64,000 bases of DNA from Epinephelus fuscoguttatus (Eukaryota > Chordata > Actinopteri > Perciformes > Serranidae): contig NC_064770.1 in NCBI RefSeq assembly GCF_011397635.1, positions 6,507,826-6,571,825 on the forward strand. Reading direction: 5' to 3'. The position numbers and the translations under genes were made by a program. The notes beneath the pieces are model-generated. The model saw nothing but the letters and a program-made list of their open reading frames with translations, did not search any database and was not told where the DNA came from. Shown piece after piece: positions 7,323-57,954 of this stretch. How positions within the stretch are numbered: the stretch's first letter is position 1; each line of letters starts with the position of its first letter.

Positions 7323-7409
7323 GAGCTGTGTGATCTAGGTAGTTTCAAGTTGTTGGGCTGGATGCTTGAGATCACAGGAACCTGAAACTGCCTTAATCAC
7401 ACCAGTCTC
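7323..7409 (+). ncRNA. mir196: mir-196 precursor hairpin
   Basis: Positions 7336-7357 match a mature miR-196 sequence at all 22 positions as I remember the family. It begins TAGGTAGTTTCAAG and carries A rather than T at nucleotide 13, so it is closer to the fish miR-196b form than to miR-196a. The flanks fold back: GTGTGAT before the mature arm pairs with ATCACAC after the 3' arm, and the 3' arm contains CCTGAAACTGCC, pairing with the seed half of the mature arm. The loop is about 15-20 nt around TGGATGCTTGAGATCA. In vertebrates mir-196 genes lie between Hox9 and Hox10 paralogues, which is the position here, 18.3 kb 5' of hoxb9a and on the same strand. The mature RNA represses Hox mRNAs, best known for HOXB8, and a matching site is present in the hoxb8a 3' UTR at 57933-57954. 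The exact precursor ends are estimated. The a/b/c/d suffix is left off because assignment needs comparison with other fish loci. Confidence 0.96.
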
Positions 7410-8206
7410 AGCTGAACACAGCGGCATGCCAACAAACAGCAGAAGAGGACATCAAGCAGACTCAGCACTTAACCCAACACAACCTCTGTCATCTGTGTAC
7501 TATGTACTGTTAAGGAGACAAAATGCTTTGTTTAATGCTGCTAGATGGGCAGTCTGGTGAAGCCTATTTAGATTGGTTGCCTTTGCAAAAAGCCACAGGT
7601 AAATGCAAAACACATGTTCTTTGAATCTGAAATTGAAAATGGATACATGGTGGTTTGCCCATGTGTTGCTCCATCAGAAACCTCAGTAAACATTGCCTTT
7701 GTTTGAGTGAAGGTGCTTCCAAATGTTGATGTTTTCTCTCTAGAGTCTGTAGGAGCTCCTTTCACTGATCATATCTGACATGGATCTCATTTTACATTTT
7801 TATTTGTGTGTTCCCTCTTTGTGTTGTGTGTTGGAATGTGGAATAATCATTGTTTTTAAGGGGGGACAAGGAATAAAAATTCTCATTTCAATTTGACTTA
7901 AATGACAAGAGTGTCTGCAACTCCAGCATTAAGGCAAAGACTGTGCCTACCCACACAGGTGTTTTGGCCAATTAAACCTCTGCTCAGGTTAAAGTGAGCT
8001 ATGGCTCTGCTGAGGTCATCAAACTTTCTACTCTCTTAGCATTAACAGGCAACACAACTAAGTGAGTGAGGGGGATGTCAGTCAAGCACAGTCCTGAGCC
8101 AGAATAAGTGGAAACACCTGTGTGCATGTGCACAGCTGGGTCCGTGCAATTTGTTTATGAAATAGTAAAACCTAATAAAATGAGAGTCTGAACTGTGATA
8201 GTCACA
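7410..8206. other. Downstream of mir-196, nothing recognised
   Basis: No coding or repeat signature is visible. An AATAAA-type word occurs near 7870, which could belong to the pri-miRNA, but such words are frequent in AT-rich sequence. Confidence 0.4.
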
Positions 8207-8210
8207 TTAA

Positions 8211-8418
8211 AGGGATAGGTCAGAATTTTTGAGTTGTACGGAGTGCCTATCCATATGTATTACATACTGTAGATGTCAGTCAGCATGCCATCAGCTTTGA
8301 GAAAAGGCAGGATCACCGAAACGACAGTTAAACACTGCTGTGAATGGGGGGCGGCACACAGCGTAGACATATATCAGCCACCTAAAAATAAATCCCACAG
8401 GAAAAAGTCAGTAACAGC
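8211..8418 (+). mobile_element. TTAA-type repeat fragment, interrupted by the next element
   Basis: It starts directly after TTAA (8207-8210) with AGGGATAGGTCAGAATTTTT and runs through CAGCCACCTAAAAATAAAT. This resembles a repeat I know from many percomorph genomes that starts at TTAA. The left end is present; the right end is not found. The next element begins at a TTAA inside its expected interior, so it appears to be the older host of a nested insertion. Confidence 0.5.
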
Positions 8419-8422
8419 TTAA

Positions 8423-9046
8423 AGGGATAGTGCACCCAAAAATGAAAATTCAGCCATTATCTACTCACCCAAATGCCTGGTAGGGAGGCTCTGGTGAAGT
8501 TTTAGAGTCCTCACAACACTTATGGAAATCCGAGGGAGAAGTGGCTAGCAGCACAACTGCACACCTAATGGCTGACGGCGACCCAGATTAAAACGTCCAA
8601 GAACACAGAATTGAAACCATAAAATATCTGCATATCTCACGAGATCGTGAGACATCAGCACCGCCTTCATGTGTGTTCACGTGCTTTCGCTGGTCTCGTG
8701 CGCAAGCGCACAAACGTCAGTGCAGTGTACACAGAAGCAGTCAGAGCTACAGGCTACAATGAGGCTAAAAACAGAGTTCAAATGACGTTTTTCCAAGCAA
8801 CTTTTTATGTCGGGGCTTCAGGACACTTGGATCACTACGGGCGAGCAGTATGGAGATATTTTATGGTTTCAATTCTGTGTTCTTGGACGTTTTAATCTGG
8901 ATCGCCGTCAGCCATTAGGTGTGCAGTTGTGCTGCTAACCACTTCTCCCTCGGATTTCCTTAAGTGTTGTGAGGACTCTAAAACTTCACCAGAGCTTCCC
9001 TCGGCATATGGGTGAGTAGATAATGGCTGAATTTTGCACTATCCCT
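8423..9046. mobile_element. TTAA-flanked fold-back MITE (Kolobok/piggyBac-like)
   Basis: Both ends read AGGGATAGTGCA inward and are flanked by TTAA at 8419-8422 and 9047-9050. The inverted termini extend about 200 bp (8423 to about 8630, and about 8853 to 9046) with few differences, including the block TTTTAGAGTCCTCACAACAC and its complement. About 220 bp of unpaired sequence lies between them. TTAA target duplication is typical of piggyBac and Kolobok superfamilies. There is no transposase, only a short frame across the loop. The close match between arms suggests either recent insertion or arm homogenisation. Confidence 0.85.
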
Positions 9047-9178
9047 TTAAGTGAATGCCATATTAATTGTCACTGCTTTTCCTTCCCTTCAGATGTGGAA
9101 GCTTTTAAGTGCTTCAGTTGTCCATCTATGCTCTCGTCTAAGCCACTAGTCTACTGACAAAAACAGAAAGTTTGGCTT

Positions 9179-9361
9179 GTTGAACATGGGAGCTACTGGT
9201 CTACCACTGCCTTAATCAATTAGTTAGTTAGTGTTATTGTGTTATTGTGTATCTTTGGTGAATCTGAGGCAACACTTTCAAACACCAAAATCACACAATA
9301 ACACAAACATATAGGTAACTGTTCAAGGGAGCAGTAGACCAGCAGCTCCTGTGTTCAGTGA
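9179..9361. mobile_element. Short fold-back element
   Basis: TGAACATGGGAGCTACTGG near 9181 is inverted as CCAGCAGCTCCTGTGTTCA near 9340. The inner words GTTATTGTGTTATTGTG are inverted as CACAATAACACAAAC. The unit is about 180 bp without coding potential. The target duplication is not clear. Confidence 0.65.
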
Positions 9362-9786
9362 TATTATATCACTGTTTATCTCAATGGACTCTGGCTTTGA
9401 AGAAAGTGATAGAACGGTGTCAGTTCCCCGTCAGAAATCACTGTCTGACAGTAAGGTGAAGCTGTGAAAATATTCTTGTTATAGTGTACACTGCACAGCT
9501 GTACATTGTTTAGGTTCTGTGTCAGACTCCAGCCTACTTCACCAAACTGAAGGTGTGCCAACTGACATCTGCTGAAAAAAAAAGCCACTGACCATGGATA
9601 AGTACCCCATACAACCAAACTTCCAAAGATCCAAACTATCACTGTCACAAATATTTAAGCTTTTAATTCTGAAGTGTGAGGCGTGAATTCATTTTATATG
9701 TTTTCATTTTCTTTTCTTTTTTTTTTTTTTTTTTGCATGTGATAGTCCACTTACACATAAACGTCTATTGAAAAAAGGTGATGTTG

Positions 9787-9930
9787 AAGGAATATTTCTA
9801 CATTTTGGGATATGCACTTCTTGCTTGAGAGGAAGATCACTATCAGTCTCATGTCAGCATAAAGACTAAGTTTCTGTTTGTGTATGGTTTAGACAAAATA
9901 GATACAGTGTGTTAATTATTTAGCCTTAGA
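9787..9930 (+). repeat. Family B repeat, partial decayed copy
   Basis: AATATTTCTACATTTTGGGA, then CTTCTTGCTTGAGAGGAAGA and CAGCATAAAGACT, follow the left part of the element at 4960-5492. The rest is missing or unrecognisable. Confidence 0.5.
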
Positions 9931-10176: not shown

Positions 10177-10178
<2 letters not shown>

Positions 10179-10229: not shown

Positions 10230-10230
<1 letters not shown>

Positions 10231-10946: not shown

Positions 10947-11711
10947 ACGCAACACATTCTCACTCCCAAATGGTGAAATACCAACACTTGGTCTGCGGAA
11001 ATTCAGTAATGACGTGTCAATTTAAGCTTGTTACCTGCATTGTCTCTTTTCATAATAAAATTTCGTTTTCACAGGAAATGTACAGTTTCTGCTCATTAAA
11101 TGCATACATTCATCTTCTAACCACTTCATCCTCTTGAGGGTCGCAGGGGGGCTGGAGCCTATCCCAGCTGACATCGGGCGAGAGGCAGGGTACACCCTGG
11201 ACAGGTTGCCAGACTATCGCAGGGCTGACACATAGAGACAAACAACCATTCACGCACACATTCACACCTATGGACAATTTAGAATTATCAATTAACCTAG
11301 TCTGCATGTCTTTGGACTGTGGGAGGAAGCCGGAGTGCCCGGAGAGAACCCACGCTGACACGGGGAGAACATGCAAACTCCGCACAGAAGGGCTCCCATG
11401 CCCGGGATCGAACCGGCAACCCTCTTGCTGTGAGGCGAGAGTGCTAACCACCACACCACCGTGCTGCCCTTAAATGCATACAGTCTTTTTCAAAATATAT
11501 TTGGAAAGTAGGTACAAAAGGTGTTTTTTATGTTTACTTCCTTCGATTTAGGCAGCAAAAGCATGTGCTTATGTTTAGAAAAATAACATGGTTTGGTAAA
11601 AAAACAAGTGCTTGTTATTAATGTAATGCCATGTCACTTGGCATACGTCACTGATTTAGTGTGCCACAACAGCCTGTTCTCATTCCGAATTCATCAAATA
11701 CCAAATCTTTG
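10947..11711 (+). repeat. Old repeat with two direct copies of its end, split by the SINE
   Basis: The words CATTCTCACTCCCAAATGG, then GTGAAATACCAACACTTGG (10952-10996), recur in the same orientation at about 11674-11712 as GTTCTCATTCCGAATTCATC, then AAATACCAAATCTTTG. This terminal motif is one I recognise as common in fish repeats. The SINE at 11109-11469 sits inside this older sequence. The exact structure is uncertain. Confidence 0.4.
11109..11469 (-). mobile_element. tRNA-headed SINE-like retroelement with perfect 13-bp target duplication
   Basis: Read on the - strand it begins GGGCAGCACGGTGGTGTGG and contains a polymerase III box A-like TGGTGTGGTGG and a box B GGTTCGATCCC. It continues through CCGGCTTCCTCCCACAGTCC and ends near CTCAAGAGGATGAAGTGG. 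This is a ubiquitous fish repeat as I remember it. The flanks carry an identical duplication TTAAATGCATACA at 11096-11108 and 11470-11482, which defines both ends exactly and shows target-primed retroposition. The identical duplications point to a comparatively recent insertion. It has no coding role. Confidence 0.88.
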
Positions 11712-25687: not shown

Positions 25688-25762
25688 ATGTCCGAGAATG
25701 TCCATTTCTGGGACTTTGAGCAACTATTACGTGGACTCCATCATAAGTCACGAGAGCGATGA
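25688..25762 (+). other. Overlapping upstream ORF at the hoxb9a start (24 codons)
   Basis: An ATG at 25688, ten bases before the hoxb9a ATG, opens a different frame that runs 24 codons and stops with TGA at 25760-25762, inside the hoxb9a coding region. Both ATGs have A at -3. If transcripts start upstream of it, scanning ribosomes could initiate here and miss the Hox start, lowering translation. The frame is directly visible; the effect is inference. Confidence 0.5.
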
Positions 25763-26310
25763 ACTCTCAACCCCGGCTCGCTTTCCCAGCGTCCAGTATT
25801 CCGGCTCGAACTCCGCCGCAGCCGCTGGCGGAAGGCAGCCCGGCGGCTCGGCGCACGCGGAGCATCCCCATCCTGAGTCGTACCCATCCTGCAGCTTCCA
25901 ACCGAAGCCCCCGGTCTTCTCATCGTCATGGAGCCCGTTCAGTCCGCACCACGGTGCCAGTGGCCTCCCTACTGTCTACCACCCTTACATCCCAGCCCAG
26001 CACGTGCCCGCCGCAGACACACGGTACCTACGCTCATGGCTGGACTGCGCGCCGCGCGGCTCCGAGTCTGTCCCGGGGCAGGGCCAGACGGGGCAGGTTA
26101 AACTGGAGCCGCAGCTCGGCCATCTCGGCGGGGAGATCCCACCCAAAATCGGCGGACAGCACCAGCACGAAACCACCACGTACATCTTGGAGTCGGCTTC
26201 CACGGCGGCGCGCGAGCTAAGCCACCATCCGGCCGCTATCCCGGGAGCAGGGTTCGAGGAAAATAAGGACATTTGTGAAGGGAGTGAGGACAAAGACGGC
26301 CTGGATCAAA
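25698..26310 (+). CDS. hoxb9a: hoxb9a exon 1 (N-terminal part of Hox-B9a)
   Basis: This exon encodes residues 1-204 of a predicted 282-residue posterior-group Hox transcription factor that acts in the nucleus to pattern the posterior trunk. It opens MSISGTLSNYYVDSIISHES, the conserved Hoxb9 start, and continues with the Hox9 activation region: PSCSFQPKPPVFSSSWSPFS (about residues 62-81), VYHPYIPAQHVP, RYLRSWLD, and CEGSEDKD near the end. The donor is CAAA|GTAAGT at 26310/26311 (phase 1), which joins to exon 2 to give GLDQ-N-DPSANW, matching the family. The start is fixed by homology with Hoxb9. Human HOXB9 has 250 residues, so this one is longer, mainly through Ala/Gly/His-rich insertions in the N-terminal half. 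It is the most 5' Hox gene in the window; mir-196 lies 18 kb upstream and hoxb8a downstream. Exon 1 is GC-rich compared with its flanks. No frame damage is seen. Confidence 0.97.
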
Positions 26311-28951
26311 GTAAGTTATTAAAGCAGGAAATAGCGCGCGGGAGAAGGAGAGAGAGCGGAGAGTGAGAGAGGGAGAGAGAGAGAGAGATTGTAAATGCTT
26401 TTAATGCCGCCATAAAACAAGAACAAAGAGCCGGAGAGCCAAAGTGCCCCCACCTTCTGCTCTCTAAGTTTACTGTGATATTTAGCCCGTATCATCCCCG
26501 AGTAACCAGCCGGTCCCCACAGTAACGGAGTATATATGTAACAACATAGAAATGTAGTTTTTTTTTTGTTGTTTTTTTTTTTTAAACGTGGCACATCCTT
26601 CAAATAACCTGCAAAACATAGATGACATGAACAACTTGCAGTCTAAATAAAACTGTACAATAACAAAAATCGCCCTTAAAAGCATGTGGGATCAACACCT
26701 AGCACAGTCTTGACAAAAACTGCAGATGATATTGCATTAGATTAAGGTATGGCTGTTGTTGCATCTATATGACAGTTTGAGAATAACTTTAAGTACTTAG
26801 GATGGTCAGTTAGAGTTTCTCAGCAATCAAGGACACGTGTATCCTTATAGCTTTACATGCGTGAGCTGAAAAGAATATATATTTTAATTACAGTTGCTTG
26901 TGTACGAAAGGATGAATAGAGTGCCTCTGAATATTTAAGACGCTCTGAATGAGGAGACATTCAAAATACAAAGATGAGAAAAAAAACTCATAAACCATTA
27001 AGTCAGTTTTTTAAACTTTACTTCCCCCCAATCTGCTGCTCTTCTTCCTCGGATCTATTAATCTGGTAGTAATTGGAGAACGCTGCTGACTTTGGCTAAC
27101 CTCTACATTGTTTAACGTTAGTAATTACTCAGGGCATGCGCACTGCTGTCCTGTTTGACAAGAACAAAGTGGCTGATGCTTTAGATTTGTCTGTTTTTCT
27201 TTTACTGCAGGTGCATTGTAGGTCGTAGGGCTCTCTTCTGTCTCTCTGTCGTTGTTTCACACAAGGGCGCGCGCGCACATGGGCTTGTGTCTGCGCTCCA
27301 TTACGTTTTAAAGCTCCTGATGTCAGTCAGCTTGTAACAAGCCCAAGTCCTAACTGTAAAAACAGAGAAAACACATATGTATGTGGACCTACAGGCTTCC
27401 TGCTCCCACTGTGTAGAACTTGTATGCTCTAACCAAGGGTTAGTACCGATCTCCAGTATGGCAACATGAGCTCCAGAGCTTTACTGGTGCGTCACTGGAC
27501 ACGCTGGAGAATCTTTAATATGTTTAAGTATTTGAGAAAGTCACACTGCATTGTCAATATGTCATAGATACAATTCTAGGAAGCTATTTAGACACTGTTT
27601 TCTGCTTTGCTTTGACATTAATGTTGCAGTCATCTATTTTCATCATTTCCCGACATGTGTGTGACTTATATTGTCATATTTCTTTTCTAATATCCCCATG
27701 TATCGGCACTCCTCTGTGGCAGCGAGTTGTAAACATTATAGAAGATAAAGTATCGTTTCCGCCCCCCTAAACAAATGTTTATCAGTCTTCCTCTAAAAAT
27801 CCTGCAAAAAAATCCCAAATGGAGTCAATCTGTCCATCACTGACACGAGCCGAAGAGCAGGCTAGATTAGTTCTAAATAGAGCAGAGTCCTCATAACTCA
27901 GCCAGCAGCGTGGACTAGCTCTGCTGTACGGGATTCAAAACACCGCTCACATGAGGGGGGACAGTGAGGACAAGCTCTCTGGGTTCTTCCAGCATAAATC
28001 TACAAATTCACGTGAATCCCACAGCGGTTTGTGATGGTGTTTCAATCTGTAGTTGAGCGTGAACATGAGTGGAAGACAAAAGAACTAAACAAAACTGTGT
28101 TTTGCAAAGGAAATAGACTAATCACCTAAAATATATCAGTCTGTACCTGGAAAACTGTGGCGTTTCTTATTATTTCTATTAGGGCTATCAGCTTATTTAA
28201 AAAAAATGACACTCAAAGTTTGGATTCATGTATTAATGGATAAACGTATTGCAGCCTTCAAAGTTTAGATGTAAAAATGCACGACGTCATTTATTGATAT
28301 TAATATTTTAGACTTCAAAGCAATAATTGGTAATATTTCCCGCCAGGCACAACTGTTTTGATGTTATTATAGTCTGGGCTGCCGGTCATACAGTCGCATG
28401 TGAATTGCTGTTTAATTCATCTGCTCGCTCTGTAATAATAATAATATTTTACCTGTCAAGAAATCGCAATCATCTTGATATAAAGCCGTGGAGGGTTTGG
28501 CCAGTACAACACGGGTTTGTTCTGTTTTTCTATCATCATTCGCACTAACAACAACATTTAATCCATCATGTGCTGACGGCGTTGGCTCAGTTTGAAGCTT
28601 TCCAAAGCGACGTGACTTATTTTGGGCGGGACAGAAAAACGCTCCCTGGAAAGACATTCAGTCGTGTTTTTTTATATTATTTTATTTCTTATATATTTCT
28701 TAACTGGCTGATGTGAACGAGCTCTGTTTCCTCTCCTCTAATCCCGCCGGATAAATCTAGTTTCTGCCAGAGATGTCTGATCCATGCGTCTGAGTGCGTG
28801 GACGCTTGATACGAGTACTTGCGTTGTGTGTGTGATCGTGTGCATGAGAGAGAAAAAGGGAGGCCTTCCCCCCCGTATTGGCCTTTTCCGAGGAAGACAT
28901 ACAAATTCTAAATACTACACACTCACATATACATATTTTATTACTACACTG

Positions 28952-28981
28952 GCACACACACACACACACACACACACACAG
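28952..28981. repeat. (CA)n microsatellite
   Basis: About 30 bp of CA in the hoxb9a intron, with more imperfect CA sequence to 29039. Confidence 0.95.
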
Positions 28982-29769
28982 CTCTGCCCCTTTCTTTTTC
29001 TGTCTCTCACACACACTGATGCGCACACACACACACAGCCACCCTATTACAGCATCTGAGCATGCTATCCATCAGAGCAGTGAGCTGGTTAAGGGCTGGA
29101 TGGAGCCCAGCAGCCTCCACTCTGAGTTATTAGACTTTCCACCAGTAACACTGTGTGTCCCATGGCTTGGTGGTAGAGCAGGCTCCTCTGTAATGGATTC
29201 AAGTGTTCAAACAGTCAAAACTGACTGAGAGTCTTCCCACTTAGAGAAAGTTTCTCTCTGAGCTGTTACTGAGTGAGTTGTTTTTCTGGTGGTTTGGGTT
29301 TTTTTTTCTGATGTGCAGTGGGTCAGTGTGGCAGGTAGTGGGAGCTGCTCCAACCAGCAAGTGAAGGCTGTTTCTATTGTTCACATGGCAGCCATTTTAA
29401 ACGCTTTGATGGGGTATTTTTCTATGAAGGCAAAACAGAGCTATCCTTACTTTAATCCAACTTAGCTGTACTGATAAAGTGAGTGGTTTCTAACTTAGGA
29501 AGCAGGAATTGTCATGTTCAAGGGAATTTAACTAGAAATATCAACACATTATGCTTTCTTGCTAATGCTGACTTCAGCTGGCTACATTGGGGTGGGTAGC
29601 CTAATTTTGGGTTGCAACTGCAGAATAGAACCAGTCTTTTTCTGAAAAGTTAGCTGTTTTGATATTACAAGTGACACCATTATTTTCTCTAAACAAGTGA
29701 TCTTTGTAGAGTTTTCATTAATATACCGTCATAGCTGTCTGGTTGACTTTTGTGGCTGTTCTGTTGTAA

Positions 29770-30070
29770 TTAAAAGGTACAGCTGGAAATTTGGGGTGGT
29801 ACACTTGTTCATTTTCTTGCTGGGAATAAGTAAATGTGAAGCTCACCACCAGCAGCCTTTTAGCTGAGTTTAGCGCAAAGAGTGGGCAAGAAACAGCTGG
29901 GCTTACTGTCCAAAAGTTACAAGATTTACCTACCAGTACCTCTAGAGACCACTAATTAACACATTATATATTGTGTGTTTAATACTTGCAAAAACATAAG
30001 TATATATGCGGCATGTTGTGGTGTCTAGTGCTCAGCAAGAAAATGGAAGTTTTTACAAAAATGTCCAGCT
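29770..30070 (+). repeat. Family B repeat, decayed copy
   Basis: Blocks corresponding to the element at 4960-5492 occur in order: CATTTTCTTGCTGGGAATAA, AAGCTCACCACCAGCAGCC, GAAACAGCTGGGCTTACTG, CCAGTACCTCTAGAGACCAC and TAATTAACACATTATATA. It is much more diverged than the 5-kb copy. Confidence 0.55.
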
Positions 30071-30886
30071 ATTCTTTTAGGGTATGCTAGATACACTTAC
30101 TTATGGTTTCAATAAGGCTTTGGTCTTGGCTTTGTGTGGACAAAGTGGGTCTACAAGGTAATAATCTGAGTACCATATATCATGGTACAAACTTACTGTG
30201 ATGTCAGTCATGTGACTAATATATCTGTCATTTAAAAGCATGACAATATAAACTGAGATCAAGAACAGAAACACAGAACAACTCTTGTTTTGATATGGAA
30301 TGGCAAACAATAACTTCTAGTGTACTGAATATTTGAGATGTATCATGTTTCTTGTTTGGGTCATATATTGGCACACTCTCACAGTCATATTTTGTACCCT
30401 GTGTCCACTGGACATGTTCACATAAGCGGCCTGACAATGTAGTATTCAACAGTGGCCAAATTCCTTGGAGTACTTTGACTGTATGAGTAGCTAAATGTTA
30501 CAGGATGGCAGAATTCTTGGAAGTCCTTGTCGATACTGATTACAAGAAGGGATTTAGGACAGATGGTTGGAGTTTCAGAAGTTCTAAAGGCACATAAGTT
30601 GATACTTCTTATGTGTTGCCAAAACAGCAAAGATTCCTAACAGAAAGCAGTTTTTATTCATGATAAAATATATATATATAATGCTTCCTATAATACTTGA
30701 TGAATTCTATGATTCTAGGATGTGGATGTGTGTCTCCAAATCCAGTCGTTTCTGATGCACTTTTAGCTCAGTTGCCTGATGAAAATGTTTGCATTATTTG
30801 CTTCTGCAAACTACACTACTACTACACTACTTTACATGTTTCATACGTATCATATCAGTGTCTCGATATAAGCTGACTTTTGTCAC

Positions 30887-31263
30887 TGGGAGGTGGGGGA
30901 GGTGGTGGATGGCATGTCACCTAAGCTGCAAAGCTGCAGACCACTGTTTAATACCAACAACAGAGGCTGTTTTATGATGACCCTTTGCAGCATACCAACA
31001 GTGTTTGTAGTAGCGAACTTGGGTGTTTTTTACCGACACATCCTTGCATTTCCTAGCATCGCTGCTTTTCCATCAGTAACCAAATTTGGGTGTTTCAAGC
31101 CAAAACAAGATCTTTTGTGATTATCGTGCCTAAACCTAACCACACCTTCACCACATGAAACTTCAAATTTCAATGTAGTGGCCACAAAATAAGGCACAAA
31201 TGCAATGTATCCTTGGTTTGCAGAAATGTACAATACAAACATTTTTCTCATTGAATGGGTCGA
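30887..31263 (-). mobile_element. Family A interspersed repeat, shortened copy 3
   Basis: Read on the - strand from 31263 it gives AAAATGTTTGTATTGTACAT, then TTCTGCAAACCAAGG, GAAGGTGTGGTTAGGTTTAG, AGATCTTGTTTTGGCTTGAA and a final block ending near TGACATGCCATCCACCACC. This is the same block order as the copies at 4157 and 17259. It lacks the far inverted terminus, so it is truncated. Confidence 0.65.
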
Positions 31264-31840
31264 CATTTTTTAGAAGGGAGCCTGGGACGTGATTAGTGTC
31301 TGCATCTTGGCATATAACAGCAGGACAAATCCAGGCAGAGTTTCCCTTCCCAGGTATTCAAAATGGCCGCTGTGTGAATAACATCAGTGGAATCCTACCG
31401 TGCAAAACATCACATCCAGTCAAAGTCAGCACCCAGCTACAGATTCTCTTTGTGTTACTGGTGCTGGGCGGCCATCCAGAATAAACTACAAGATTACACT
31501 TCAGTCTTTGTGCTGCTGCTGCTGCTGCGGGGCAGTGCGAGAAAGTTATTACCCCCGAAGTTTATTAAGTTATAACGCCGGGTGAACAACCCCATTAATT
31601 GGCGTGTTGCTGTTGGTGGCTGGGTGAGACGGGGTGTAAGGGTTGGGGTGGGTGGGGGAATAAAATACGACTTCTGGAAATGTAATAACGTGCCTTTGGG
31701 ATATATGAGAGGTCAATTTCTGGAACTATTAGGGTGAAATTGCTAAGGGAGGGAGAAAGAGAGAGAGAAAGAGACGGGATGTGATATTAGTCTTCTAGCT
31801 GTTTCGGTCACTGTTTCCATGCAAGCAACATTTATCATGG

Positions 31841-31866
31841 TGGACACACACACACACACACACACA
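31841..31866. repeat. (CA)n microsatellite
   Basis: About 26 bp of CA in the hoxb9a intron. Confidence 0.9.
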
Positions 31867-34800
31867 TAGGCAAAGACACACATTGGCCTACAATTGAACA
31901 CATCGTGCTGCAGGGCCATAGTTTTACGGGAATATCAATCTTTTCATCCATGTGCCTGTCCAAGTGACATCCAAGCCATACATTGCTTCAGCGGATACAT
32001 GGATGTAGCCTAAAGAGAAAACTTCAAGTTGAGCTACACACACATATCCCCCCACCCATATTCTTTTTTTTTATCTGTCATCATCCTTACTGTTGTCCCA
32101 CCCTTTGGAGAAAAAAACTCTATATCGTCCCCCATCACCACCAGCACCCCAACGCACCACCCTCCTGCACCGCTGCACACCCACCCACCACTCAACCGGT
32201 TTGTCATCCTGGGTGACAGCCACGGTAGCGGCACAGCTCCGAGGGTAATGGATGGTCCTAGAGGTGATTATACACCCGGGGAATGCAAAGCACCCACTTT
32301 ACAGTGTGACAAAAGCGTGGCACACCCCCCTCACCCAACCCTCCACCCTCTCCTCACCTCTTTACCAGGCATTATTTTGCTCTGAGATGAAATCGATCCT
32401 CTACATGCTGGTCATGTTGGAGGAAATTGATTCCAGAGGGTACTAAGGACATATTTACTGATGATGGCTGCTAACTAACTTGGCTGGTGGGAATAATACA
32501 AGGAGGCTATGATGATGCCATGTACATCAATGGCGGCCATCTTGGCTTTGCAATCTTGCTCTGAACAAGACTCTAATTTGCTAAATTACACCTTATAAAA
32601 TGCTTGTGAATGAATTCCTGTACTCTCACGTTTACATACCCTGCAAAAAATACCTGATGGAAAGTCAAGGCCCTTTAACTCAGTACATTAGTACAATATT
32701 GTAGCATTAGCTAATAAGTACAACATATTGGTTTCGTGTCTTTATCTCCAATGTTTTGAGCAGGGAAGGCTTTTATCCTGGGTTTGTTCACATTTATGAA
32801 GAAAACCTCAGTGACTGAGTCCACACACTGTGCTTGTTTGTGTACATTTTAAATAACAAAGTCATATCTTTTGGAAATTGGAACAAGCTCATGTCCTTAT
32901 TGATCTTATCTGATTATTTCAAATGGGGCTTTTTGTCTGCAGTCTGTGACAAGCTCTCTGTTAGGAAAAATGAAAATTGTATGTGGAATTCAAGGAGACA
33001 TATGAGACTGCTGTGTTGGTTCAGACTTGGTGAACAGATAGCTCATTGATCAGTTGATTAGATTTTGGTGATGAATCAGATCTGGAAATTTCACAATAAA
33101 AACAGTATTTGTTGTGATCATGATGTGTTCACATGGTCAATCGGACTTGGAAGACATGTGATAGACTGACATGAATGATTGAGGAAGCTGATACTTTTAT
33201 GAATTGGTCAGGTCTGATGCTGGTCAAATGTATGATAGAAATTAAGGACATAGATTTCTATCCCCATCTGTTGTCCTTGTTGTACTGATTGTTGATGTGG
33301 ATGTGTCAATTTCTTTTGTGTGTCTTTGCTGTTAAGAAATTATGGAGGCCCTGCCAGGAAGTGGTTGAAGTGTTTAATAAATAAACTTGGATCATACCAA
33401 GTCAAAAATGTAACATAACAAGACAAGCATGTGTCTAATGAGTTTTCCATTCCAAATTATGACCAAAGTCAAAAAGATGAGAGGTGTGACTTACTTTTCA
33501 CTTACTATCTCAACAGTATGACTAACTTCTCTTAATAGACTTAAAACACGAAAAAATGATCTGTAGGTCAAAGATTTGACTTCCCATAGCGATCCCATAA
33601 TTTTAATTAATCACAAGTATTTTTAAATTATTTATTAACTTTATATGTCTTATTATTCCTAATTTTTCATATAATTTTCCTTTTAAAGATGTTGCTTGTC
33701 ACCCATTTAAATACAGATGTGACAAAGCTAACACTGTTCATGGTTCCACACAAAACAGCCTTTTGTTCACAACTGGGACTTAAAAGAATTATTGTTATGA
33801 ATGTCATATGCAGTTCTATGAATTGCCCTGGCATTATAGCAAGAAGGATTGTCACAGCAGTAAAATATCACCAGTGAAATTGACAGACGAAGCCTCCGCC
33901 CAACTTAAGTGAGGAAAAAGACTGGCTCCTCAGGGGGAGAGACACATATTTTAAATCTCCTCGCCTGACGGAAAAAAAAGGAAAACGCTGAAGCTCAGGC
34001 TTTCCCCATGACTTGTGAATGATAAGATCATCCCTTCTGCCATTTTAGGCCAGAGGACTCAGGCTACATTTTACTTAAGAATATAAAATCTCCTTCATAA
34101 CCCCTAGCCCTGCAGACCTGGTCTGCTCCTGGCTGTAAGGATAAATCTCATATTTTTTGCAGTTTGGCAGCAACAATGAGAAACCTTTTGGCCCTAATGT
34201 TGCCCAAACTGATTTAGATGGATCTACATTCCCACATTCAGCCTGATGGTCAGACTGCACGTGTGCTGTGTTTGATTACCGCCTCTGGAAGGCTATAGGA
34301 TAACAGAAACAGCCAGTGACGCGAAACAAAGCAAGTTTTTTAACAATAAATCCAGAGCGGAATCCCCTCTTTGAGTCACATTTGGTTTGTGCTCCAGACT
34401 TGGAATTGCACTGGAGACTGAGATGGCGTCACTGATAAAATGCAATGAAGAAAGGCAGTATCAAAGACATTAGTGCCAGTGTGTACTTGCTTCCTGCTTT
34501 GCATGTTGCCCTTCACTGCTGTTCATCATCACAGATGGTCTAATAGCTTTTATAACACATTTTATTTAGCTTTTAAGACAAAATTTAAAGAAATTTCTAC
34601 ACCTATAAGAAGACAGAAATCTTAAGCTTTATGTTTGCATTGATTTTCTTTTTGGTTTTACAGCCTCTAGCTACAGTGGAAGACTCTGTTGGTTGGTTTG
34701 ACTGTTGTGATTGAGTGGAGGAAGAGCCTGACCTAACCACAGGGAATGATTGCTCATGGTTAAAGGTTTTATTTAGAAGATGTAAAAGTGGAATTGAACC

Positions 34801-36727
34801 AGAACCAGCTCTAGCCTCTCACAATGCTCCTTAGTGTGTTTTGGGATAGTAATAGTTCTTTCAAAACAGAGATGTTTATCTTCTGGGATTGTGAGAAACT
34901 TTGCTAAAATTATTTAAACATATTAATATTCGCAGAGAAACAGTGCAAAATGGGGTCAAGAATGAAATCAGAAAAATATTTTTTGTTGTTGTTCTTATTG
35001 TCATGGTAGAGTTGTCTTTTCTACGAGCCTCTGTGCCGTGAGAGTCCCAGCAAGCTGCCTCATATTTGAGATGCCTTGGTGCTTTGCAGAGGGGAAGAGC
35101 AGATAGCTTTCAGCCCTAAACCAGACCCATGCGTCCTAAACAAGAAGTCTCTGCTAATTACATCGGTCTGAAAGCTATAAAGAGGGGTGTGGTGGCCTGG
35201 AGGGGTGTGGAGGAGTCAGGGTGGCCTGGCAAACAAGACGTATGGAAGAAAGAAAGAAATAGACGCAGAGAATAATAACATCAAGGCAATAATTCATAAC
35301 TTTCTCTCGGCCGAAAATGAAGAACATCCACAAGGAGCATTATGGGTTACAGCGTTGTTATTTACATCTCAAACACAGGTTTCAACAGTCTCAATTGCGT
35401 TGGAGCATGTCGCTGTTCTGATGTGGCAAAATGGAGCTGAGCGTCACAAATCCTTTGTTTTATCACATTTAATTTCACCGATGTTGAGTGCACAACACTA
35501 TAGAGAATATGTACTAATGTAAAGACAATCTGCTTTTTATTAGTTGATGTATATATTTAGTTCTGATAAAATGCTGTGCTAACGGGTTCAGTACAATCTG
35601 CTGTATGAAAACTGTATCGAACCTTTCTAAGCTTCATGAAAGGAGAAGGTCAGGGTGCACACAAGGAAGATTTGTCCTCTCCTCCCATCAGGGCCATAAA
35701 TTTCCTGCCGTTAATTAATTTAGGAGCAATCAGAAGTGACGCAGTGACAGTGCGCTGAGCTACAATATGATCATCATTGTCACGCAAACAAAACCAAACA
35801 TTATTAGGCCTGCAAAACATATTCCTGCTGTGTTTTTGTGTGTTTGCTGTGTTTGCTGTCATCGCGCAGAGGGAAACTTCGGCTCCTGTTTTTTTTTGTC
35901 ACAAACTGTGATTTAGACTCACACACAATGCTGCCTCGTGTTATCATTAGTTTTTTTTTTTTTTTTTTTTACCTCCACGATGAGAGCATCTTGTATTTAT
36001 CCGCTGAAGGTCACCTTCAAACAGGGGCCTCCAGAAACACGTCAGATATCTCCCTGTCTGTCATTACCATATATGTGTGTAATTAACTGCGGCACTGACT
36101 GTATCAGCTAACTCATTGGCTAATTTCTAATCATTGCCATTTAATGTTTTTGCTTTAAATGTAAATGAAATTGCTGCATTTTTTAAACTGATCCGCAAGC
36201 AGCTTAAATTTAGAAGAACGCACGGAATCACTCTCTTACAGAATAAAATAACACACCATTGAGCTATGTTGGGGTTGCACTGTTTCATTAACTTAGTCAC
36301 GCTACTTTTTTTTTTTGCTCTACTTTTAAAAAATGTGCATTGAAGGGTGCTGTTTATATTTGTCCGTCGTGCTTTCCTCCTCTTCAGAGGAAGCTGTTGG
36401 TTGGATGGAGCAGGCCGTCTGTCTTCCGTTTACGTGGTGTCAAATAAAACAGCCATGGATCTACTTGTGTCAAATGTGCGCCCCTGTTGACACCATAAAC
36501 CTACTTTACGCACCAAAGTGCCAATTGCAGAGTCAGGTGTTCTCGAGCAAAGCTTTTACGCACAAGATTCTGCAACTTTTACGCACGAAGTGTTTTGCTG
36601 CTTTTTTACTTGCAATGTTCTAAAACTCCTGTAAGACAGGGCTGGGGAGAGTACACAGGCATTTATTACTATTGGTTATTCTATTATTTTATCATTAACT
36701 GCATTCCCTTCTATTCTCTTTCTTCAG

Positions 36728-36963
36728 ATGACCCCTCGGCCAACTGGCTGCACGCACGCTCCTCCAGGAAGAAGCGATGCCCGTACACCAAATATCAGAC
36801 GCTCGAGCTGGAGAAGGAGTTCCTGTTCAACATGTACCTCACGCGGGACCGGCGGCATGAGGTGGCGCGCGCGCTCAACCTGACGGAGCGGCAAGTGAAG
36901 ATCTGGTTCCAGAACCGGAGGATGAAAATGAAGAAACAGAGCAAGGACCAACCCAAGGACTAG
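36728..36963 (+). CDS. hoxb9a: hoxb9a exon 2 (homeodomain)
   Basis: Encodes residues 205-282 and ends with TAG at 36961-36963. It starts with [12 protein letters not shown], which holds the Hox9 Trp motif (W211) that contacts PBX partners. The homeodomain follows at residues 217-276: [20 protein letters not shown] in helix 1, [15 protein letters not shown] in helix 2 and [14 protein letters not shown] in the recognition helix, with W264, F265, Q266 (homeodomain position 50) and N267 (position 51). The short tail is SKDQPKD. The only notable change from mammalian Hoxb9 is [10 protein letters not shown] for ARLLNLSERQ, a conservative pair. The acceptor CAG|ATGACC is preceded by a pyrimidine tract. 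The frame is intact through both exons (849 nt including stop). Confidence 0.98.

Positions 36964-37654: not shown

Positions 37655-37714
<60 letters not shown>
37655..37714. repeat. (CA)n microsatellite
   Basis: About 60 bp of uninterrupted CA. Confidence 0.98.
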
Positions 37715-45665: not shown

Positions 45666-45730
<65 letters not shown>

Positions 45731-45731
45731 T
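45666..45731. repeat. (GT)n microsatellite
   Basis: About 58 bp of pure GT, then GGTGTGTG. Confidence 0.97.
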
Positions 45732-50869: not shown

Positions 50870-51302
50870 ATGAGTTCATATTTCGTCAACTCGCTCTTCT
50901 CCAAATATAAAAGCGGGGACTCGTTACGTCCGAACTACTACGAGTGCGGTTTCGCGCAGGACCTGGCCGGCAGCCGGCCCACCGTGGTGTACGGCCCGGG
51001 CTCCGGCGCCACCTTCCAGCACGCTCCGCAGATCCAGGACTTCTACCACCACAGCGCCTCCACGCTGCCCAGCAACCCGTACCAGCAGAGCCCCTGTGCG
51101 GTCACATGCCACGGCGAGCCGGGCAACTTCTACGGATACGACGCCCTGCAGCGGCAGACGCTTTTCGGGGCCCAGGACGCGGATCTGGTCCAGTACAGCG
51201 ACTGTAAACTGGGAAGCGCGCCGGGGCTCGGCGGCGAGGACGCGGAGGGAACCGAGCAGAGCCCCTCACCGACGCAGCTGTTCCCCTGGATGAGGCCGCA
51301 AG
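50870..51302 (+). CDS. hoxb8a: hoxb8a exon 1 (N-terminal part of Hox-B8a)
   Basis: Encodes residues 1-144 of a predicted 279-residue Hox transcription factor of paralogue group 8, a nuclear regulator of trunk identity that binds DNA with PBX and MEIS cofactors. The start [20 protein letters not shown] is the invariant Hox8 N-terminus. [58 protein letters not shown] and [16 protein letters not shown] follow closely the mouse protein, with the PBX-binding hexapeptide FPWM at residues 138-141. The donor is CAAG|GTGAGG at 51302/51303 (phase 1). The start is fixed by homology and is preceded by a short A-rich leader. Residue differences from mammals are few, and the exon looks under strong constraint, unlike the hoxb7a first exon downstream. 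Confidence 0.98.
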
Positions 51303-54300
51303 GTGAGGAAATGGATAAACTGGCTACAGTGGTTGTTTCCGTCTTAGCTTTTTCCCTTGCTCAAAGCGAATCTTCTTTCCCGCAAGGTGAGTGTCCATGT
51401 TAGGAGCAAAGCTGCTATTCCTCCAGGAGAGGCAGACAGAGAATGTAGAGTCACAGTGAGGAGGAAAGAGTGGAAGAAAGTTGGAAAAGTGATTTTAAAA
51501 GTAACAATAGGAGCAGGGTAATTTGAGCTTCCTGCGTTCAAAGCGCGTTTATGGTTTTATTGGCAGCACCAAAACTTGTGAATGACTTTAGGGTTTAATT
51601 GCCCCGGCCATATACTGAGAGAATGGCCGGGAAGAGCCGGGATAGAAGCTCAGAGAGGGAGAAAAGCAGTCAAAAAATAGGCTAGAGATGGTGAGGAGGA
51701 GGGGGGACCTATTCGTGAGAACCCCCCCTCCAAAATCTGAGAAACCCCTGCTTAGAGCAGATGGGAAAGAGTTGTTGGAGGTAGTTGTTTCCAGCCGCAC
51801 AGACTCATTTTAGACATGCAGCTCTGACCCGGGTTAAACTTTTACTGCCTCTTTTTGCTTTTACGACTTGCCTGTGGTCTCCGGGATTATTTGGCTACAC
51901 GGTGGCCAGTTCCCCACAGGGTTAAAGCATGGGGAGGGCAGTGCATGTGTGAATGTGTGGGTAGAGAGGATAAGGGGAAAATAAGAGTATTCTTACTCTG
52001 ATGTAGCACCTTCGCAGCGTGTGTGATGTGGAAACTCGCAGGCCTGTCTGATCCATTGATTCAAATATCAAAATCATGCCTCAAGTATCGTCCGCGTGCG
52101 TCAGTGTGAACATAGCTTGCTTTTGTGTCCTGTGTGAACACTTAGTGGTCTTCGTGTGTTTGTGGCACGCAGTGTGTGAATATATGGATCAGGCCCGATT
52201 GGCTCAACACGATCAGATTATAAATCTTAAAGAAATCTAAAAATATTTGCATTATAGGAAAGGCGAGTTTATAATTGATGGCCTAAACCAACAGCACAAT
52301 AAGACTGATTATGCAAGACGGCATTTTTGTGTTAGAGAGACATAGACTTAAATGTAGAGAGAGAGAGAGCAGTGAATGGATTGACATGTATAGTAGCCTA
52401 TTTTGTTTGAGCCCATATTTCTTAGGCAGTGCTCTCTGTGTGTGCGCGCGCGCGCGTGCGTGCATGCGTGTGTGTGTGTGAGTGTGTGAGTTTATTGCTT
52501 ATGTTCTCGGTTGTATTTTTTAAAGTGGGACAGCAGACGGGTTATAGCCTGTACAGGACTTTTGTGGCTTCATGATTATGACCATAAAATAGAAAAATAA
52601 TAAATAAAAAACAGCCCAGGTCTGCATTCACCTCGAGCTGCTTTCTCTCCACCCATATACGACATACACCTGCTACAGATAACAGTAATAATAATAGCTA
52701 ATTCACATTTACGCACGTTTTATAAGACTATGAACACTTTTCCTCCCCAGTGCCTCCCAGCAGTGTTTGTGCTGCATCTCCTCGTGTATCTGCATTGAAG
52801 ATTTTCTGTTTGTGCGGCCTGTAAATTGTCATAATTTACATCTTTAAAGCCTCTGTTATATTTTCCCAAACACTTGTCCCCCCCCTTGCTCCCTCACGGC
52901 TTTCCAAATCATTCCCAGCTTTAAATACGAGCGGCCACACTCATGCGCGGGGCTGAAACGACTTCTTAAGAGGTTTTGCCCTTATTTACAAACGATGACA
53001 GTGATTAGTCTCATGATTAATAGTTTTCCAACAGTGTACTTGGGCTTAATGGCGTGCCGGTCCGGCTGCAGGCAGCTCCGATCATCCTGGTGGCCGAAAA
53101 GTCAAAACAGGAAACCAGCCGCTCAAGTCTGCGCCGCTGAAGTCCGAGAATGCTGCACTCACTTACAGCCCGTGCGCGATTTGATGGGATATTATCGTTG
53201 CTCAGCGTGAGGATTTATTAGTTATAATAGCAGAAAAAGGCGGACGGTGTTTCGTTGGTAAAACGGGAGGATGGAGCGCAGCGACGGAGGCGGTTATCAT
53301 CCCCGTTTACCTCGGAAACCCCCCTTTAACGAGGGGGTACATTTCATAATTTGTACTTTAAAGAGGGATATCGCCTCCTCCACACCTTTTATATTATAAC
53401 CCCAGCACCGGAGGAGGCTCCTACCCACAGAATATGTCTTGAAATACTCCTGAGCCCCCAAGCTGGAGGTTTAATATCCGAGGATTATTCTAAACTCGTG
53501 AATATGAGCCGTTTTACGACTGTTACCGCTGTGGATGGAAATCTTCATAAATCATCTCGACTTTAAAAATGAATATAGAATAAAATCTGATTAGGCCGAA
53601 GAATGAATGTAATGGTATTAGTGTCCTTTGCCTCGGATCTCATTGGCATCTGTTGTCGAGTGTAAACCTCGTTTCTCCTTTCTCCAAAATGTCAACTGCC
53701 AAGTGCCATGCATTTGTTTAGGGCTTATCTAATTGGCTTTGTAAAGGTTTCATATATAATAGGTCTTAAAAATGTTTCACTATCCCAAGGCTTGTAACAT
53801 TTTCTCCAACCGTAAAAGACCAAGTAATCCTTTAGCTGACGCTTTGCCAAATAAATGTATTCCTCCAAAAGCGCAGCGCACTGACGCAGCCAGGGTTGGG
53901 GGTTAAATTCCCCGTGCATGTTGTTCCGTCTAAAACCCTCCGGATCAAAGCGTCCGTGCTGTCATTTTATCCGGGAAAGTGTTTCACATTTCCCTTAATT
54001 CATGGCTGGTGACAGCAGTGAATGTGGCGCCCACTTCCCTTTAGTCCCTATAGCACGAAATCACGGCGCCAGCCCTGTGACAGATAACACATACAAGACA
54101 TTTACATCACTTACAAGTTCATGCATTTCCATAAAGACTCCCTTGTCTGCGTCTTGTGGCTGTTTTACCATAAAAAGCAGTCCTGTGCCCGTAGACGGGC
54201 GCAAGATGTGAAAATGCAATGAGAGCACGAGTCACAGCATCCTGGACTTAAGTTGGTAGTAGATATATAATGGATATTGAAGATATTTTTCACCCTGTAC

Positions 54301-54443
54301 CTGCAGGCTTTTATAATGTGATCAGTGGAGATAGACTATAAAAGACTTGTATGTGATTATAGCACTAAATGCGCTTCCATCGAAGTCATTACCCTGTCCC
54401 TTAATTTAATTCAGAAACTTTACTGTCCTGGGAGGAGTGTGTT

Positions 54444-54444
<1 letters not shown>

Positions 54445-54485
<41 letters not shown>

Positions 54486-54486
54486 C

Positions 54487-54520
<34 letters not shown>
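54445..54520. repeat. (GT)n microsatellite, interrupted
   Basis: About 76 bp of GT with GCGTGCGTGC in the middle. Confidence 0.97.
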
Positions 54521-54522
<2 letters not shown>

Positions 54523-55634
54523 GGGATCAGCTCAGACCAGAAAGCTCCCAAGAGACTGTTACTCTCCAAAGACAGTGTTTTCTTTAATTTCCTTGACATA
54601 TTTGAATTCCTACAGTTCTGCGCACGTGCGTTACCCTTAGCCTTTTCTTATTAACACTAAAGTCAAACCTGCCAATCGTGACAAATCTCATGTTCTTTTT
54701 CTTCTTCTTCTTTTTTTTTTTTGTTTTTTAATTTTTCTTATTTTACTTCACACCCTTATGATCACTGGCTTTTGCCACTGGACTCATTTTATGGTACAAT
54801 AATCAAAGAAGATAAACAGTTTTATGGAAATATAATCACAAATGTCCTGTATGTGTGAACTGTCGGGGGTTCGCTGCTCGCGGTTAAATGACTCAGTTTT
54901 ATTCGCTCCTATATACTGAACTAACGTCTAGTTTATTAGGAGCGTTGGAACATTTTAATGAGGAAGCAAGCATCGCGAGCATCTTTTCTTTCTTACAATT
55001 TATCTAAAATCTGTCTGTTATCATCCAAATGTAAGGTATAGGAGATATTTAAAACAAAATAGCTTGGAAGGACATCTTGTCTGTCTTCTCTTGCTTTATA
55101 AAATCCAGCTGAATGATAGAATTTCACATATTAATTATTCAAAGAAGTCATGCACCTATGCTTGTCCAGCCTGTGCGCAGAAAACACACAATATCTGACC
55201 TTGTGTGTTCATATTAAGTATTTATGAATTTTATATTGCGTCTGTACACTGGGTTCTCTGCCTGTGCTGTTTCCAGATTTCACTTCAGCAGAGTACTGAT
55301 GACCTGTTGATAATAATAATATGTCTTTATCTTCACTCGGCATCGTTTGCACCATTTCTAATTAAAAGTCTGTGTTTGTCATGAGAGGAGGCAGCTCTGT
55401 CTCTCTACTCTGATCCTTTCGGCGCGGGGTCTTTTTTTTCCCTTTGAAGTGTTTACGATGTATTTATAGCATTAAATATTCATGTGCACATTTGTAAGTG
55501 CTCAGTGCATTTGTCTGTAGGTTTTCTCTTTTTATGTTAATAACTGCAGTCACTGTGTGCTGTGGGCGAGTTCCTGACAGACTGAAAGAGTTCTTTGACT
55601 CACGTCTGAAGAGTAGTAGTAGGCTAGCTATCTT

Positions 55635-55636
<2 letters not shown>

Positions 55637-55715
<79 letters not shown>
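55637..55715. repeat. Compound (GT)n(GA)n microsatellite
   Basis: About 40 bp of GT passing directly into about 40 bp of GA. Confidence 0.97.
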
Positions 55716-55718
<3 letters not shown>

Positions 55719-56899
55719 TAAAGTCACATGAGTATCACATCATTTTTCGACACACGCACTGAACACTAAAAAAACTGGACTTGTTTTTAACATGTCGCAT
55801 TCCAACATTAACAGCATACTCGATCTGACTTGAGAAAATCCCTCTAATTTACCCTCCTACGTTTTGGGGATCGCAGTGGCAAACCACAGACAAAGATGAC
55901 CATGAAAGTCAGTGGGATTTGTTGGCATTATTCAATAAGAATATACTTCCTCCTAACACCGATGAAATTAACAAAAGATCATTGTAAATGCAACCCCACT
56001 TGTACCGTCACACAGTCAAACACAACCATGCTAAAAATCTTAACATTTTCAAATTTTCTGATTTTGGAAAACTATCATTACATCACAGGTCATAAAGTAA
56101 TGTGGACACGATTAGTCAGTAAACCCGCTGTTGACTGTCGTCAATCAGATCATTGATTTATTATCGATTGCTTATCATAAAAAAGCCAAACAATCTTTTT
56201 GCTTGTTTTTATTATTTTAAACCCAAGTATCTCTGGTTAAGACTCCTGGTTAGACAAAAAGTTGTATGATGACGTCACATTGAGTCTTTGGGACTATTTC
56301 TTCCCATGTCTTCACCTAAAGCATACACTATCAATCGATCATTTATTGTTTTATTATTTGATTTAGCCCACCATACCTGCATAAGCAAAAGTCGTGATTT
56401 TGCAGTGACCGCTGGTGTTGATTTGACATGTTTTTTTCCCTCCCCAGAACACAAGGGTGTAGGTTTTATTTCACTTCTGAGAAGGATACATACAAAGTGC
56501 GGCGGGGGGTTGCCAGAAAATTTTGAGCGTCAAAACACTTGATACCCCCCATGCTGGTGGAATTTTACGCACCGATTTCTGGCTTTCCTGCACACATTTC
56601 TGGTGTGGATGTCTTTAATTTTTCCAAAAGTCTTCTGTTACTTTCTGTTATTGAGAGTGGTTAATCCAAGCGTCCCCCCAACCCAGAACGTCAAAATGTA
56701 CGTTAAAAATTCAAGCCTTCTCGGAATTAACGGTTTGAATAGCCTTTTTTCATTAACGCAGCCTAATAGGCCTGAAGGTCTGTTTGGTTTTCATGCCATG
56801 ACCACCATGACATGTTAAGAGTGTAGTCTTGCCTCTAATAATGTCCCCTCCACTCTCCCGTGTCTCCCCTCTCTTCCCCTCACCCCCACCCCTCCCCAG

Positions 56900-57306
56900 T
56901 AGCTGCGGGTAGGAGGCGGGGCCGGCAGACCTACAGCCGCTACCAGACCCTGGAGCTGGAGAAGGAGTTCCTCTTCAACCCATACTTGACCCGGAAACGC
57001 CGCATCGAGGTGTCGCACGCGCTGGCTTTGACGGAGCGGCAGGTGAAAATCTGGTTCCAGAACCGGAGGATGAAGTGGAAGAAGGAGAACAACAAGGACA
57101 AGTTCCCCAGCAGCAAGAGCGAACAGGAGGCGGTGGAGAGGGAGAGGAGGGAGAAGGAGCTGCGTGATGGCAGCGGCAGCGGAGGCGGAGAGGGTGGTGG
57201 TGGAGGTGCTGAGGGAGGAGGAGGCCCCGTGGCGGTGGCGGGCACGGCGGGGCCACAGGCCACTGTAAATGAGGATTGTTGCGAGAAAACCCACAAGCAA
57301 ATGTAA
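56900..57306 (+). CDS. hoxb8a: hoxb8a exon 2 (homeodomain and Gly-rich tail)
   Basis: Encodes residues 145-279 with TAA at 57304-57306. After VAAG comes the homeodomain (149-208): [20 protein letters not shown], then [20 protein letters not shown], then [20 protein letters not shown], with W196, Q198 (position 50) and N199 (position 51). Next are [13 protein letters not shown], a shared Hox8 feature, and an unusual tail: a charged stretch ([12 protein letters not shown], about 223-234) and a Gly-rich block (about 235-253) broken by E and A, then a unique end. Mouse Hoxb8 has 243 residues and a short acidic/Lys end, so the tail is expanded by roughly 35 residues. The acceptor CCCCAG|TAGCTG joins in frame to give PQVAAG. 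Large - strand frames (for example 57586-56975) overlap it and are GC-rich shadows. Confidence 0.97.
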
Positions 57307-57649
57307 GGAGGCAAGCGGTGAAATTAAGGGGAAGAAGTGAAAGAGGTGGAGGGCGAGGAGGGTGTAAGAGTTGGACAAGAGGGGGTGAGGGGGGGTGGGG
57401 GTGGGCGAGGGGCTGTTGTTGTCTTAATCGAAGCCATTGGACTGCTCCGTTGTCTCCACAATTCAATTGATGGAAAGGAACTTGAGTCTCCAAAATGGCG
57501 ACTGGCGGGCCGGACGGACTGGAGGGGCCTCGCGCCTCTGTCTGCTGACTGTAAAAACCGCGGGAATTAAAAAAAAAAAGAAACAATGAAGCAAGAAAGT
57601 GAACTAAAAAAATACAATTGATGAGGGCGGGGGTGATCCATCCAAGTCA

Positions 57650-57655
57650 AATAAA
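57650..57655 (+). terminator. hoxb8a: Candidate proximal polyadenylation signal of hoxb8a
   Basis: AATAAA 344 nt after the stop codon, upstream of the miR-196 site. Its use would give a message lacking the site. Confidence 0.35.
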
Positions 57656-57932
57656 CATAGTCTACTCTAGTGTTTAAAACAAACAAAAAATGAAAGAAAA
57701 ATGATAGCTTCCTTTCTTTGTGGAACAATTATTGTGGAAACATTTCTATATTGTTAGAAGTTTATCATTAACAATTTTATCTTTGGCAGCTGTATAGTTT
57801 TTAAGTTAAAAAAATGATGATGGTGCACTTTTTACTGTACTTCTCACTTCTATGTTGTTGTTGTTGTTATGGCAATGATTGATTGATGATGATGATGATA
57901 ATGATGATGATGACGTAGCAATTAATGAAATT

Positions 57933-57954
57933 TCCAACAACATGAAACTGCCTA
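57933..57954 (+). promoter_or_regulatory. miR-196 target site in the hoxb8a 3' UTR
   Basis: The site ends ACATGAAACTGCCTA and pairs with nearly all 22 nt of miR-196. Against the miR-196 encoded at 7336-7357 there is one true mismatch (A:A at miRNA nucleotide 13), a G:U at nucleotide 5 and a G:U at nucleotide 22. Against the miR-196a form (T at nucleotide 13) only the two wobbles remain. This is the known vertebrate HOXB8 site, for which miR-196-directed mRNA cleavage was shown in mouse. Pairing at nucleotides 9-12, around the cleavage position, is intact here. Confidence 0.93.

Follow-up and report, generated by a model that had tools for sequence, protein, structure and literature searches.

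We analysed a window of 64,000 nucleotides (nt) from the HoxBa cluster of the grouper Epinephelus fuscoguttatus (NC_064770.1, 6,507,826–6,571,825, forward strand), which contains both a gene for the microRNA (miRNA) miR-196 and, in the 3′ untranslated region (3′UTR) of hoxb8a, a near full-length miR-196 site. The arrangement is probably the ordinary vertebrate miR-196/Hoxb8 circuit in a teleost, with adenine at nt 13 of the local miRNA (A13) and with copies that have uracil at this position (U13) better fitted to hoxb8a. Both the circuit and the A13 form are already known, and the difference between paralogues, read from copies in the same genome, is correct as base pairing.

The hairpin that a first-pass annotation had assigned to miR-196 (7323–7409) folds at −37.8 kcal/mol (z = −5.25; 0 of 200 shuffles equally good), and the Rfam mir-196 model (RF00256) matches it on the + strand above the cut-off of 55.4 bits (Table 1), the sole Rfam match over cut-off in the window, confirming both its identity and its stability. 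Consistent with the miR-196 family, the mature sequence sits in the 5′ arm of a stable hairpin that lies (at 7.3 kb) 5′ of a Hox9 gene on the same strand (hoxb9a, from 25.7 kb). The A reported earlier at nt 13 is present in the predicted mature arm, and the local miRNA is therefore not of the miR-196a type, whose mature sequence we take to be TAGGTAGTTTCATGTTGTTGGG and which is encoded exactly at C7 and C17. Nt 13 is mismatched in the hairpin whether it is A, U or C, and each version folds at −37.8 kcal/mol; precursor folding thus offers no choice between A and U. Given these equal folds, A13 as an improvement of the precursor was ruled out, an improvement being obtained with G alone. The 3p arm of the hairpin and the hoxb8a site have in common a G opposite nt 5. 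The antisense of the hairpin (7327–7403, − strand) scores 42.6 bits with the mir-196 model, under the cut-off, so an antisense hairpin is possible.

The hoxb8a site begins 627 nt past the stop codon. Against its 22 nt, the local A13 miRNA forms 19 Watson–Crick pairs, G:U pairs at nts 5 and 22 and an A:A mismatch at nt 13, with nts 9–12 all paired, which bears out the near full-length site, the A facing A and the intact centre described in the first-pass annotation and corresponds in its pairing to a sliceable site of the Hoxb8 type (near-complete pairing including nts 9–12, in a Hoxb8 3′UTR). The U13 form makes 20 Watson–Crick and two G:U pairs with no mismatch; the expectation that miR-196a from other Hox clusters would pair at nt 13 accordingly holds for the hoxaa and hoxca copies, which pair at every position, the two G:U pairs counted. 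The G:U at nt 5 sits in the seed and had gone unmentioned. None of 1,000 dinucleotide shuffles of 57307–58160 reached the observed Watson–Crick count of either form (maximum of 16 in both sets), and 100 shuffles of the whole-window + strand gave U13 at most 17 pairs, against 20 at the real site. In a U13 scan of 104 kb of the HoxBa + strand, the runner-up by Watson–Crick pairs was the hairpin's own 3p arm (16). Calculated duplex energies at the hoxb8a site were −35.2 kcal/mol for U13, −30.8 kcal/mol for A13 and −31.5 kcal/mol for the hoxab copy, which has C at nt 9 (C9); the advantage of U13 over A13 is thus 4.4 kcal/mol.

The paralogues were identified through an Rfam model scan and a pattern search of the genome (1.047 Gb, 26 contigs). 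The scan, which scored 59 of 198,178 first-look candidates (counts are lower bounds for large families), gave six mir-196 matches—four over the cut-off and two that are the reverse strands of two of those loci—and the pattern search agrees, with at least four loci found. Named from the adjoining homeodomains, these are hoxca (C7, 83.4 bits), hoxaa (C17, 72.7), the local hoxba gene (C19, 71.7) and hoxab (C8, 69.3). All four are identical at nts 1–8; hoxca and hoxaa encode exact miR-196a (U13), hoxba encodes A13 and hoxab C9. In the hoxab copy (L003, C8:23072944–23073017), the C at nt 9 would break central pairing to hoxb8a. The four loci match the set published for neoteleosts (mir196-Aa, -Ab, -Ba and -Ca, with mir196-Cb not found; PMC2080641), and in the eel five clusters carry mir-196 (PMC3286462).

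Judged by its letters, A13 is a fish form already in print and not specific to this genome. Zebrafish dre-miR-196b in miRBase is presumably A13 as well. A mandarin fish miR-196b primer is printed as TAGGTAGTTTCAAGTTGTTGGG, identical in its letters to the local miRNA (PMC6887715), so that no difference in mature sequence is seen in the comparison with this primer. On these identical letters, A13 as merely a local oddity or assembly error was rejected. Pattern scans of collections of prokaryotic and viral contigs gave no match. A Gulf pipefish paper uses mir196b for the hoxba gene of fishes, lost in pipefish, and places it between hoxb13a and hoxb9a as here, hoxb13a being outside what was identified in this analysis (PMC5168715).

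As in the vertebrate circuit, the grouper miRNA gene lies upstream of Hox9 and the Hoxb8 3′UTR contains a site of nearly full length; the difference is that the same-cluster miRNA has A13 facing an A in the site. Cleavage of Hoxb8 by miR-196a in vertebrates was reportedly described by Yekta et al. 2004. The mammalian Hoxb8 site also has a G:U in the seed, and mammalian miR-196b of HOXA has C at nt 12 (C12). On the grouper hoxb8a site, this C12 form (with the sequence that we take it to have) gives a calculated −30.8 kcal/mol, equal to A13. Like A13, it is a paralogue form with a single mismatch close to the middle of the site, although at nt 12, within the 9–12 region, and from another cluster; a paralogue-specific mismatch near the site centre is therefore not peculiar to fish. 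The miR-196a/Hoxb8 work of Yekta et al. 2004 is cited in PMC2148072 and PMC4191393. The distance from mir-196 to Hoxb8 is ~43 kb in the grouper (~50 kb to the site) compared with ~18 kb in mammals (PMC2148072).

In the circuit as we read it, Argonaute carrying miR-196 made by several clusters would most likely bind hoxb8a mRNA and, in part, cleave it. With pairing at every position, the hoxaa and hoxca (U13) copies should slice best, and the local A13 copy should bind through nts 1–12 and 14–21, slice more slowly and act more as an ordinary repressor; loading, slicing rates and the effect on embryonic hoxb8a levels are what we infer here. Slicing by guides whose central pairing is weak requires extensive 3′ pairing, and miR-196a on a 16-bp target or on one mismatched at nt 17 was too slow to reach plateau (PMC11100590). 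The nt-13 mismatch may thus be of greater consequence for miR-196 than for other guides. The earlier suggestion, made from the paired centre, that cleavage by the local miRNA is still possible is a fair one, and perhaps optimistic given how slowly miR-196a slices with 3′ mismatches (PMC11100590). Target mismatches at positions 10–11 bring a 3- to 5-log loss (PMC5602524), and the 3′ pairing preferred in binding overlaps nts 13–16 at least partly and varies among miRNAs (PMC8940178). Mouse cells that lack all miR-196 have raised levels of both Hoxb8 and Hoxc8, which supports the circuit and not a split between paralogues (PMC8752674).

Several points weigh against this account. In the 100 whole-window shuffles, the A13 maximum was 19, the same as at the real site. 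That the name mir196b and the A13 sequence denote the same gene in other fishes may be so, the link being drawn between two papers. Finally, some hoxb8a transcripts could lack the site, given two poly(A)-like signals upstream of 57933. Counted from the stop codon, these are ATTAAA at +260 and AATAAA at +344, with the site following at +627. If proximal poly(A) use often dropped the site from the mRNA the details of pairing would be irrelevant; further motifs at +795, +819 and +842 lie beyond the site, and we regard this outcome as very unlikely. The 8-nt seed match has a middling predicted accessibility (0.07 in hoxb8a, the 63rd percentile of the UTR; 0.16 in hoxc8a, the 86th).

Sites in other Hox genes bear on what A13 means. 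The scan covered 1.6 kb past the stop of 19 homeodomain exons (6 of hoxaa, 3 of hoxab, 5 of hoxca, and hoxb9a, hoxb8a, hoxb7a, hoxb6a and hoxb5a); outside it were hoxda, hoxdb, most of hoxbb, hoxa2b and the hoxaa, hoxba and hoxca Hox genes beyond the fetched stretches. Nine of the 19 genes have miR-196 sites of 7mer quality or better, 16 sites with two G:U 8mers counted and the hoxb5a and hoxb9a 6mers excluded: three each in hoxa9a and hoxc8a, two each in hoxa7a, hoxb6a and hoxb5a, and one each in hoxa5a, hoxa9b, hoxc6a and hoxb8a. The 4.5-kb hoxb6b–hoxb5b stretch has one 6mer only, in coding sequence. A13 pairs better by more than 1 kcal/mol at six of the 16 sites and U13 at five, the other five being within 1 kcal/mol; the largest gains are 3.8 kcal/mol for A13 (hoxa5a) and 4.4 kcal/mol for U13 (hoxb8a). 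Pairing thus differs between paralogues at hoxb8a and has no overall direction across the 16 sites, A13 being systematically neither better nor worse, which argues against an adaptive reading. We see about an even chance that A13 is neutral drift, with hoxb8a repression set by the seed, the long 3′ pairing and the total miR-196 dose, a view compatible with the circuit proposed above. The even split among sites and the equal hairpin folds with A, U or C speak for neutrality, whereas the largest single effect falls at the longest-paired site and the same A13 letters recur in the mandarin fish primer, the origin of whose sequence is not stated there (PMC6887715).

Subfunctionalisation among miR-196 genes, raised in the first-pass annotation, would go further: hoxb8a would be left to trans-acting miR-196a of hoxaa and hoxca, with mir196b specialised elsewhere. 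What stands of this idea is that two U13 paralogues exist and pair fully with hoxb8a, 4.4 kcal/mol better than A13. The local miRNA also keeps ordinary seed sites, and hence candidate targets, in its own cluster (two 8mers in hoxb6a and two 7mers in hoxb5a, where A13 and U13 are within 1.3 kcal/mol of each other in energy); these would suit a specialised mir196b, and as seed sites retained within the cluster they also count against an adaptive reading of A13. The sequence common to all four paralogues at nts 1–8 speaks against subfunctionalisation, as does the lack of direction over the 16 sites. Moreover, mir196-Ba is present in all teleosts compared except medaka, which is without -Ab and -Ba (PMC2080641), and mir196b is also reported absent in pipefish (PMC5168715), suggesting that the gene is dispensable in some lineages. 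Subfunctionalisation is possible and unproven, several controls speak for neutrality, and we consider the full division unlikely.

Only two Hox8 genes, hoxb8a and hoxc8a, were found in the genome (150 of 184 candidates scored); the third-highest identity match (86%, C20) was rejected as a further Hox8 gene, being hoxb6b adjoining hoxb5b, and the rest of the 106 listed matches have identities of at most 82%. In the hoxc8a 3′UTR there are three sites: a 7mer-A1, an 8mer and a long one, CCCCAACAACTAAAACTGCCTA (L011:5951–5972, C7). On the long site A13 pairs at nts 1–10 and 13–22 around a small loop (−28.0 kcal/mol), and with U13 the 3′ helix begins at nt 14 (−26.6 kcal/mol), a calculated preference of 1.4 kcal/mol for A13. 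By calculated pairing, the miR-196 form that fits a Hox8 gene best is in both cases encoded in another cluster, a relation new in this analysis; U13 is also encoded by hoxca, the cluster of hoxc8a itself. These preferences, and the finding of just two Hox8 genes, would fit a reciprocal wiring in which A13 prefers hoxc8a, U13 prefers hoxb8a and the two genes are split crosswise. We find this quite improbable, the energy gain being small and the hoxc8a site not made for A13: the human HOXC8 site (CCCAACAACTGAGACTGCCTA) already has U opposite nt 13 (PMC3335871). On that human site A13 and U13 are equal at a calculated −31.6 kcal/mol. The same trade is also within easy reach—among the 66 single changes of miR-196a, four weaken pairing with hoxb8a and strengthen it with hoxc8a by more than 0.5 kcal/mol, and nt 13 accounts for two of these four (of the three changes possible there). 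Considering these changes, the U in human HOXC8 and the tie between A13 and U13, the crosswise fit is more readily seen as a by-product than as a tuned pair. Compared with the human site, the hoxc8a long site has two altered bases close to the centre, and miR-196 nt 11 is now unpaired.

A more elaborate cross-wiring, in which U13 (hoxaa and hoxca) would be the efficient slicer of hoxb8a, A13 (hoxba) would fit hoxc8a and hoxc8a mRNA might lower miR-196b, is in our view highly improbable. The possible lowering is suggested by the architecture of the hoxc8a site (an uninterrupted helix at nts 13–22 with A13, a small loop at the centre, and the 5′ half paired), which resembles that of miRNA-degradation trigger sites. 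A paper on target-directed miRNA degradation does not mention miR-196 in its main text (PMC13041716). Were this cross-wiring true, Hox8 genes would be policed mainly by miRNAs of other clusters.

The window is a segment of the teleost HoxBa cluster, given the + strand order of mir-196, hoxb9a, hoxb8a and hoxb7a exon 1 (Table 1), the hoxb9a, hoxb8a and hoxb7a names being those that we assume from Hox proteins. The self match of hoxb8a exon 2 in the genome is C19:6564742–6564945. The hoxb9a intron is apparently ~10 kb long (26366–36724). Long noncoding CA/GT dinucleotide repeats lie at 37655–37714, 45666–45731, 54437–54520, 63284–63343 and 63507–63603. At 11110–11473 both strands have open frames, with a GGVVVSTLASQQEGCRFDPGHG-like peptide that we take to be characteristic of the tRNA-derived repeats of fishes; no tRNA was predicted in the window by ARAGORN.

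Table 1 Features of the analysed window (positions counted from its first nucleotide)
Feature	Position	Strand	Basis and remarks
mir-196 precursor hairpin, hoxba cluster (fish name in print, mir196b)	7327–7403	+	Rfam RF00256, 71.7 bits
Predicted mature miR-196, 5p arm	7336–7357	+	TAGGTAGTTTCAAGTTGTTGGG; A at nt 13 is window position 7348
Hairpin 3p arm	7373–7394	+	Fold; 16 Watson–Crick pairs to 5p arm
hoxb9a exon 1 reading frame	25698–26366	+	Open reading frame, MSISGTLSNYYVD...; splice end approximate
hoxb9a exon 2 with homeodomain	36724–36963	+	Open reading frame, homeodomain and stop; start approximate
hoxb8a exon 1 reading frame	50870–51403	+	Open reading frame; splice end approximate
hoxb8a exon 2, homeodomain and stop codon	56900–57306	+	Sequence; start judged from AG before 56900; stop at 57306
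Poly(A)-signal-like stretch	57566–58153	+	ATTAAA 57566 and AATAAA 57650 before the site; ATTAAA 58101 and AATAAA 58125 and 58148 after
Near full-length miR-196 site, hoxb8a 3′UTR	57933–57954	+	TCCAACAACATGAAACTGCCTA; A opposite nt 13; G:U at nts 5 and 22
hoxb7a exon 1 reading frame	61612–62217	+	Exon 2 outside the window, at ~68.6 kb

The slightly poorer calculated fit of the local A13 copy compared with copies on other chromosomes would be a modest variation on a well-known circuit. If pairing at nt 13 does not sort the paralogues, one of the longest-paired sites in animals coexists with a family member mismatched beside the slicing centre. If it does, the miR-196 family would provide a clean natural example of gene copies whose work is divided by a single base in the 3′ half of a miRNA.

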